From Oceanicola sp. D3 (GTDB lineage Bacteria; Pseudomonadota; Alphaproteobacteria; Rhodobacterales; Rhodobacteraceae), in NCBI RefSeq assembly GCF_006351965.1, contig NZ_CP040932.1:3658001-3722000 (forward strand): 64,000 bases of DNA, given 5' to 3'. This document shows positions 41,386 through 42,696 of this stretch, in pieces. The number at the start of each line of letters is the position of its first letter. Position 1 is the stretch's first letter. The notes under the pieces are model-generated. The model was not told the DNA's origin, ran no database searches, and saw nothing but the letters and a program-made list of their open reading frames with translations. The position numbers and the translations under genes are program-made.

Positions 41386-42012
41386 ATGAAGACCAATCTG
41401 ATCGCTGGCGTTCTCGCCATGGCCGCCGTTGTTGTGGCCTCCAATATTCTCGTGCAGCACCTGCTGGGCGACTGGCTGACATGGGGCGCGCTGACCTACC
41501 CCATCGCCTTCCTCGTGACCGACACGATGAACCGGCTCTACGGCGCCGCCACCGCCCGCAAGGTGGTTGCCGCCGGTTTTGTCGTGGGTGTCGCCTGCTC
41601 GCTCGTCGGCTCGCAGATCCAGGGCGAATTCGGCCCGCTCGTTACCCTGCGCGTGGCGCTCGGCTCCGGCCTCGCTTTTCTTTCTGCCCAATTGTTGGAC
41701 GTTGCGGTCTTTGACAAGATGCGCGCGCGGGCATGGTGGCAGGCGCCGCTGGCCTCCACCCTCGTCGGCTCCACGCTCGATACGGTGATCTTCTTCTCGC
41801 TCGCCTTCGCCGCCACCTTCAACGGCATCGAGCCGGGGAACGTGCCGGGATGGGCGCAGGAAGGCGTTCCGCTGCTTGGGCAGGGGCCCGTGGCGCCGCT
41901 CTGGGTCTCGCTCGCCGTGGCCGATTGGAGCGTCAAGCTGGCGCTGGCGGCCCTCGCCCTTATCCCCTTCCGCCTCATCACCGCCAGTTTCGCGCGCGCA
42001 GAAAAAGTTTGA
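41386..42012 (+). CDS. Queuosine precursor transporter (YhhQ/VUT family)
   Basis: A 208-residue protein with six TM segments. VVVASNILVQHLL, LTYPIAFLVTDTMNRLYG and STLVGSTLDTVIFFSLAF are the conserved blocks of the DUF165/YhhQ family, which imports preQ0/preQ1 for tRNA queuosine modification (established for E. coli YhhQ). The ATG at 41386 follows a 95-bp leader. No que genes are nearby, but trhO and mnmD in this window also act on wobble uridines. Directly followed by the 42.0-kb RNA-like element. Confidence 0.9.
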   Translation: MKTNLIAGVLAMAAVVVASNILVQHLLGDWLTWGALTYPIAFLVTDTMNRLYGAATARKVVAAGFVVGVACSLVGSQIQGEFGPLVTLRVALGSGLAFLSAQLLDVAVFDKMRARAWWQAPLASTLVGSTLDTVIFFSLAFAATFNGIEPGNVPGWAQEGVPLLGQGPVAPLWVSLAVADWSVKLALAALALIPFRLITASFARAEKV

Positions 42013-42077
42013 CAGGTGCGCACCTCCTGATTCACGCTGAACTTGCGTTTTTGAAACAGCTGAAAGGAGGTGATCCA

Positions 42078-42134
42078 GTGTCGAGAGCTACATTGGAGAG
42101 AGGTGTCGGGACAACAGCGGAGGTTCGCACGTAG
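42078..42134 (+). CDS. 18-codon small ORF with an extended Shine-Dalgarno sequence
   Basis: GTG at 42078 to TAG at 42132 encodes VSRATLERGVGTTAEVRT, hydrophilic and basic-to-neutral with no membrane segment. The ribosome-binding site is exceptional: the full 16-nt complement to the 16S tail ends on the first base of the start codon, with GGAGG 7 nt before it. Such extended pairing should either drive strong initiation or hold the ribosome. A second reading, a 27-codon ORF starting at the GTG inside AGGAGGTGATC, is open to 42152 but lacks its own site. Translation is inferred. Confidence 0.45.
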   Translation: MSRATLERGVGTTAEVRT

Positions 42135-42206
42135 GGCAAACCCTGCGGCGTGAATGTCGCTTTTGGCCGATGGTCTAACCGGACCTCGCCTCCAAAAAGT
42201 TCGTTA

Positions 42207-42237
42207 GGGCCGCTCCGGCATCCGGGGCGGCCCTTTT
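42207..42237 (+). terminator. Strong Rho-independent terminator before arfB
   Basis: Twelve-bp stem GGGCCGCTCCGG / CCGGGGCGGCCC (one T-G wobble) with a CAT loop, followed by TTTT. It ends the small transcript 33 bp before the arfB start codon, so it either isolates arfB or attenuates it. Confidence 0.9.
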
Positions 42238-42270: not shown

Positions 42271-42696
42271 ATGCCAATACGGGTCAACGACCAGATCACC
42301 ATTGAAGACTGGGAAATCACCGAAGTCTTCACCACCTCGCAGGGGCCGGGCGGGCAGAACGTCAACAAGGTGGCCACTGCCGTCGAGCTGCGCTTTGCCG
42401 CCGCCGCCTCGCCCAACCTGCCCCCGCCGGTGAAAAACCGCCTGCGCAGGCTTGCGGGCCGCCGCTGGACCGAGGCCGGCGAGTTGCTTCTGCTGGTGCA
42501 GGACACCCGGTCACAGGCGCAAAACCGTGAGCTGGCCCGCGAACGCCTCGCCGAGCTGATCCGCAAGGCCACCGAAAAGCCCAAACGCCGCATCCCCACC
42601 CGCCCCACGCTCGGCTCAAAAAAGCGGAGGCTCAAGGCCAAGAAAGTGCGCGGCGAGGTGAAGGCCATGCGCGGCAAGGTCGACCCTGACACCTGA
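42271..42696 (+). CDS. arfB: Alternative ribosome-rescue factor ArfB (YaeJ), peptidyl-tRNA hydrolase
   Basis: A 141-residue stand-alone GGQ protein. The catalytic GGQ (27-29) lies in TTSQGPGGQNVNKVATAVEL, and the C-terminal third is a long basic tail (KATEKPKRRIPTRPTLGSKK, KRRLKAKKVRGEVKAM) that in ArfB inserts in the empty mRNA channel of stalled ribosomes. It releases the nascent chain from non-stop complexes. It has only a weak ribosome-binding site (AGGTGTGGG) and is preceded by a small-ORF/terminator element that may regulate it. Convergent with the TSUP gene. Confidence 0.95.
   Translation: MPIRVNDQITIEDWEITEVFTTSQGPGGQNVNKVATAVELRFAAAASPNLPPPVKNRLRRLAGRRWTEAGELLLLVQDTRSQAQNRELARERLAELIRKATEKPKRRIPTRPTLGSKKRRLKAKKVRGEVKAMRGKVDPDT

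Follow-up and report, generated by a model that had tools for sequence, protein, structure and literature searches.

The locus lies in Rhodobacteraceae-type DNA (genome G000), in a window by which we mean the whole stretch of 64,000 nucleotides that was analysed. It occupies the gap of 258 nt between the end (42012) of a gene that we take to encode a yhhQ-type transporter and the ATG (42271) of what is presumably a gene for an arfB-type peptidyl-tRNA hydrolase. Within this gap, AAAGGAGGTGATCCAG at 42063-42078 is a mismatch-free complement of the 3' tail of 16S rRNA; against the genome's own 16S end (AGAAAGGAGGTGATCCAGCC, found on the complementary strand at locus L005), the addition of G42062 extends the complement to 17 nt (42062-42078). 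Its last G (42078) is at the same time the first base of a GTG start codon (42078-42080), which follows GGAGG at a spacing of 7 nt and opens the ORF GTG TCG AGA GCT ACA TTG GAG AGA GGT GTC GGG ACA ACA GCG GAG GTT CGC ACG TAG (42078-42134). Direct reading of the sequence thus confirms the preliminary description, according to which a perfect complement of the 16S tail ends on the GTG of an 18-codon ORF. The strong terminator reported there is also present, with 13 base pairs rather than the 12 given (42206-42234, loop of 3, then TTTT). The main features of the locus are the following:

41386-42012, + strand: yhhQ-type transporter gene, the upstream neighbour in 25 of the 25 family loci checked
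42009-42038, + strand: probable promoter, with TTGACA at 42009-42014, an 18-nt spacer and a weak -10 box, CACGCT, at 42033-42038
42062-42078, + strand: extended Shine-Dalgarno sequence (SD), the 17-nt perfect complement of the 16S tail, of which 42066-42072 form the 5' strand of helix H1
42078-42134, + strand: 18-codon ORF MSRATLERGVGTTAEVRT, GTG start, TAG stop at 42132-42134
42204-42236, + strand: terminator hairpin H5 with its T tract, 10 of 11 pairs changed on both sides
42271-42696, + strand: arfB-type peptidyl-tRNA hydrolase gene, the downstream neighbour in 21 of the 25 family loci checked

With a promoter-like box and a terminator of its own, the element would be a separately transcribed unit. 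The TTGACA box overlaps the TGA stop of yhhQ. Among 84 family copies, 70 have a TTGACA-like hexamer (5/6) between -80 and -40 relative to the motif, where shuffling predicts 16, with a clustering at -48 to -54. A generic sigma-70 scan found no promoter, and the -10 box CACGCT is our own reading. Between the -35 and -10 boxes (42014-42025 in the window) lies a palindrome, AGGTGCGCACCT here and ACACMAAATCTGTG in many other genera, which may be the operator of a regulator. Searches for tRNA and tmRNA at the element returned none, and a 16S fragment or an antisense rRNA was ruled out, the sole shared part being the tail complement, after which the start codon follows.

As far as sequence goes, the earlier picture of a tiny separate transcript with a very strong initiation site and its own terminator holds up, and the layout is conserved in relatives. 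The further suggestion made in the preliminary description, that the element is the leader of arfB, fares worse. It is true that arfB comes next in most family loci, with the terminator in between, as a leader or attenuator of that gene would have it. However, the association is not constant: the element is kept without an adjacent arfB in L016, L018, L020 and L027, and outside the family the neighbours change, with neither yhhQ nor arfB next to it at any of the loci. For these reasons we reject this reading, against which the promoter-like box in most copies also speaks, as very unlikely.

The complement itself is rare. Within the window there is no second match to its 14-mer, with 0-2 mismatches allowed, and the 4.05 Mb genome contains the 12-mer GGAGGTGATCCA at five places, namely at this site, in the 16S gene and at three apparently in-frame coding sites. 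In a blastn search, the segment matched each of the six further genomes that represent the genus, as well as most of the family, and a covariance model (R1), built from 53 copies of the element and given a short calibration, matches 136 of 150 sampled Rhodobacteraceae genomes, each representing a distinct genus and nearly always containing one full-length copy. Judged by these 136 genera, the element is far from a product of chance. Fourteen family genomes of high completeness (e.g. G020, G023 and G035) have no R1 match, reflecting either real loss or excess divergence. The exact 18-mer that ends in RTG was found in 33 of 385 genomes from the class, once per genome, as opposed to zero matches for the reversed 18-mer used as a control. 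The exact 17-mer is present in 27 of 249 genomes of the phylum, every one of them from Alphaproteobacteria, and is absent from about 160 non-alpha Proteobacteria genomes. The lack of conservation that the preliminary description set as a ground for refutation is thus not observed, as both the sequence and the terminator are kept in relatives.

The 16S complement is not absolutely invariant, with GGAGGTGGTCCAG in seven and GGAGGTGCTTCAG in one of the 80 distinct ORF-bearing copies. The GGAGGTGGTCCAG variant remains G:U compatible with 16S rRNA, and in the copies L017, L020, L021, L023, L027, L204 and L207, where it replaces GGAGGTGATCCAG, it pairs better with the RNA's own 3' arm. The full complement is broken in copies such as L024.

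Outside Alphaproteobacteria the same layout, i.e. AAAGGAGGTGATCCARTG ahead of a 9-24-codon ORF, was observed in Planctomycetota (L076, L077, L079, L086), Krumholzibacteriia (L085), Myxococcota-like bacteria (L107 and L124, which have the common peptide end YTAGEVV[RH]F), Spirochaetia (L142) and Nitrosomonadales (L132), its homology to the element being unproven. Several of these gaps end in a terminator-like hairpin. We do not claim homology, because R1 scores the perfect-SD mini-ORFs of Planctomycetota, Krumholzibacteriota, Myxococcota and a spirochaete weakly and because by our own arithmetic chance alone should yield about 15 exact 18-mers in so large a collection; these mini-ORFs with terminators in other phyla may be parallels. 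The same SD motif also stands in front of longer ORFs, of 56-59 codons, in L037 and L120 and in L050 and L096; their N-terminus resembles a signal peptide, and they may be a second kind of small gene that shares the motif.

The preliminary description knew of no named element with such a layout. Although the default Rfam search at the gathering threshold indeed gave no match, a search with the short segment returned RF01867 (caulobacter sRNA CC2171) over model positions 1-159 of 159, with 45.9 bits (E 9.2e-9), i.e. a full-length match below the gathering cut-off of 75 bits, and a search of the whole genome with this model has the element as its single match (E 3.2e-8). The 5' block of CC2171, GAAAGGAGGUGAUCCAGUGUC, is identical at 42062-42082. 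Significant RF01867 matches are present in 66 genomes of the class; since only 10 of the 66 reach the cut-off, the CC2171 family is probably far wider than the threshold suggests. Copies from other orders do pass the cut-off, and the model also matches Caulobacter vibrioides among the control genomes. We therefore regard the element as a likely distant member of this alphaproteobacterial RNA family, full-length and sub-threshold, an assignment that forms part of the main reading given below and shares its probability. No function of RF01867 was found in the open literature, where its only mentions that we found are the Rfam 15 paper and a list of Mesorhizobium sRNAs (as MH_s33). The searched passages of transcript papers on Ruegeria, Paracoccus, Bradyrhizobium and Caulobacter contain nothing for the locus.

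The 18-codon ORF is open in all 80 distinct family copies, with no premature stop and with the stop always at codon 19. The identity of this stop varies (TAG in 39, TGA in 27 and TAA in 14 copies), and TGG, of which independent variation of bases 2 and 3 would give about 13 instances (27 x 39 / 80), does not occur at all. The stop identity changes at least 32 times on a tree of the yhhQ region upstream, a tree that is short and has some long branches. The frame and the stop are therefore under selection, and the ORF is probably translated. In Caulobacter, a study has reported translation of two RNAs previously classed as ncRNAs, which its main text does not name (PMC4117421).

The constant length, frame and stop, together with the somewhat tighter constraint on codons 2-12 than on codons 13-18, would also suit an ordinary small protein gene, in which a tiny mRNA encodes an 18-residue peptide, the strong SD serves high expression and the fold is incidental. 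On the other hand, pN/pS is 0.83, the entropy is equal at the three codon positions, and the conserved codons (ACA, GTC, GAG) are fixed at their third positions too, as expected for RNA. Moreover, the same SD is followed in other orders by unrelated peptides, most of them 14-30 residues long. We consider a protein gene unlikely; the peptide is probably a by-product and the act of translation counts more. A near-constant 14-residue peptide, MS..KRCHLAGIAR, is seen in the Bradyrhizobium-type copies (L097, L104, L110, L111, L128, L139, L141 and L060), where CTGGGATC, a complement of the SD region, is found among its codons.

The RNA is predicted to fold more stably than its shuffled versions (z -5.7), with -94.9 kcal/mol for 201 nt, terminator included. 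The consensus of 53 sequences contains five helices, H1-H5, with 91.9% of cells paired and with 157 double-change cells, compared to 58 for shuffled and 25-51 for slid controls, a significance that the shuffle tests overstate, as the copies are related to each other. In addition to H5, the elements of the fold are:

42066-42072 with 42187-42193, + strand: helix H1, GGAGGUG with CGCCUCC, 97% of cells paired in 53 sequences
42074-42097, + strand: start-codon hairpin H2, UCCAGUGU (42074-42081) with ACAUUGGA (42090-42097), 97.2% of cells paired in 53 sequences
42115-42120 with 42157-42162, + strand: helix H3, 6 of 6 pairs changed on both sides
42130-42136 with 42141-42147, + strand: helix H4, around the stop codon, 3 of 5 pairs changed on both sides
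42175-42181, + strand: CUAACCG, nearly invariant and unpaired, beside the 16S-tail mimic (columns 129-135 of alignment A1)
42187-42193, + strand: CGCCUCC, a mimic of the 16S tail and the 3' strand of H1
42198-42202, + strand: AGUUC before the terminator, a possible pseudoknot partner of GAGCU (42085-42089) in the H2 loop

In this alignment H3, H4 and H5 carry true compensatory changes, and H1 and H2 are less proven. The changes in H2 are mostly one-sided, to G:U, with one pair changed on both sides; the one-sidedness of H1 and H2 (G:C to G:U) can be explained by their nearly invariant 5' strand, which is also held by 16S rRNA. In the GGAGGTGGTCCAG copies L020 and L027 the 3' arm has a matching change (GGACCATCTCC). 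Complementarity between the H2 loop and the pre-terminator segment (GAAAG/CUUUC, GAGAA/UUCUC, GAGU/ACUC, UGAA/UUCA) exceeds what is found when partners are shuffled (0 of 500 shuffles as good) in a test that counts Watson-Crick pairs only, the window's own GAGCU/AGUUC needing one G:U. These matches hint at a possible pseudoknot at the position of the long helix of CC2171. The conserved unpaired motifs are complementary to rRNA over 7-8 nt only, which we take as chance. With a fold that covaries strongly and a peptide that is barely conserved, selection, as read from these alignments, acts at the level of the RNA.

Another reading is a non-coding sRNA that acts in trans with its CCUCC arm as an anti-Shine-Dalgarno seed, like other sRNAs of alphaproteobacteria, and leaves the ORF unused. 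The Rfam relative is filed as an sRNA, the unpaired CUAACYG beside CCUCC is conserved, and the 3' half weakly resembles the RcsR1 and suhB models, below threshold. Nonetheless, a non-coding RNA would account neither for the selection that keeps the stop at codon 19 nor for the retention of the optimal SD spacing and of the full 16S complement, and we hold this reading to be doubtful.

What the preliminary description missed is that the strong site is masked by the 16S mimic and by H2. In the free RNA, the computed pairing probability is 0.97 for the SD and 0.90 for the start codon (means of 53 sequences), and the duplex of the SD with its own downstream sequence is stronger than in shuffles (mean z -1.66 for 146 alphaproteobacterial copies). 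According to the computed energies, opening of 14 nt costs 10.1 kcal/mol and pairing with the 16S tail returns -23.8, for a mean net of -13.7 kcal/mol, whereas opening of a 5-nt SD costs 6.8 and returns -8.7, for a mean net of -1.9 kcal/mol, and in the window's own sequence leads to a net loss of 0.5 kcal/mol. Because pairing over 14 nt pays and pairing over 5 nt barely does, the long complement would be needed to overcome the lock.

The 16S tail is predicted to be bound very strongly, as a ribosome trap or sponge would require, i.e. an RNA that holds 30S subunits tightly enough to withhold them. However, the site is predicted to be closed in the free RNA, titration of ribosomes by a single-copy gene would demand enormous expression, and the conservation of the stop speaks for ribosomes that terminate and leave in the ordinary way. 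We thus consider a sponge highly improbable, and the internal mimic and the start-codon hairpin, which mask the SD, make a gated switch likelier than an open sponge. The same masking, with an anti-SD arm on the SD and the start codon in a hairpin, would be found in an RNA thermometer, where heat melts the SD and the tiny ORF is then expressed; given such a stable fold and no constant downstream gene to control, we regard this as extremely unlikely.

We propose that the element is a dual-function small RNA in which the 18-codon ORF is translated and the ribosome-binding site is kept shut by the RNA's own mimic of the 16S tail until ribosomes open it, and we give this reading, including the relationship to CC2171, a probability of about 0.55. 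While conservation, selection on the ORF and its stop and the covarying fold come from comparison of sequences, and SD occlusion and energetics from computation, transcription, translation, strand displacement and action in trans are what we infer. According to this proposal, a separately transcribed RNA of about 190-200 nt would, when free, have its SD shut in H1 by the downstream mimic and its start codon in H2. A 30S subunit would displace H1 and H2 with its 16S tail, for which purpose the whole single-stranded tail, and not just 5 nt of it, finds a complement. Initiation and translation up to the stop at codon 19 would unfold H2-H4 and free the mimic arm CUAACCG...CGCCUCC, which could then pair with the SD sites of other mRNAs, or the RNA would be exposed to decay. 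It is tempting to go further and to consider a ribosome-opened riboregulator, in which free 30S subunits gain access to the masked complement, the RNA is kept open by translation, and the freed copy of the 16S tail pairs with the SDs of other mRNAs, feeding the ribosome supply back onto translation, a scheme that we offer as a tentative one with a low chance of being correct.

Several observations weaken the gated switch. The alignment of CC2171-type copies from other orders has a consensus fold that leaves the SD mostly unpaired and uses a different long-range helix, so that in this type the pairing of SD and mimic may be an alternative state. The 16S complement is broken in L024 and the mimic is altered in L061, and, as described above, H1 and H2 are the less proven helices.

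Roughly nine in ten genera of this large family keep the element as a single-copy RNA, and related RNAs occur throughout the class. It combines an exact partner of the 16S tail with a copy of that tail. Should the gating be true, the element offers a natural test case for the tolerance of very strong SD sites and a test of whether RNA by itself lets bacteria sense free ribosomes. The element moreover extends RF01867 far past its cut-off and suggests that the members of this family are translated rather than non-coding.

Several known systems share parts of this design. In ORF-11 of class 1 integrons and similar mini-ORFs, a strong SD likewise precedes a very short ORF; our element shows no integron features and stops at a terminator of its own instead of leading into a gene. 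The CCUCC-bearing sRNAs suhB/mmgR, RcsR1 and SisA-D exert anti-SD action. They share with the element an arm with CCUCC before the terminator, but here this arm is predicted to be locked onto the RNA's own SD, and the matches to the suhB and RcsR1 models of Rfam are weak and below threshold. SisA-D are from Caulobacter and thus, like our element, alphaproteobacterial (PMC12559287). The rnTrpL / peTrpL of Sinorhizobium, a dual-function attenuator RNA with a leader peptide (PMC10117765, PMC7298713), is also a small alphaproteobacterial RNA with a tiny ORF, translated in its case, and a terminator. However, rnTrpL is leaderless and tied to trpE, whereas the element combines an extreme SD with changing genes downstream. 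The closest relative is CC2171, with which the element has in common the GAAAGGAGGUGAUCCAGUGUC block, a short ORF starting on RTG, the length, the terminator and the single copy. The two differ in the fold, as the structure in Rfam is not the one found here, and in the ORF, which is of the MSHCH type in CC2171 and an 18-codon MSR..LE..VGT ORF in the element. The 16S mimic, present in most lineages, is located after the stop in Rhodobacteraceae and inside the ORF in the CC2171 type (CCTGGATCGTCGCCTCC, compared with the 16S tail CTGGATCACCTCC), and takes the form TTGGAGCAGCCTC in others. The letters of the long helix of CC2171, which joins UCAUUGUC downstream of the start to GACAAUGGA upstream of the terminator, are absent here. 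A shorter pairing, GAGCU/AGUUC, stands in the same place and covaries across the family, and may be the element's counterpart of this long-range pairing of the first codons with the pre-terminator segment.
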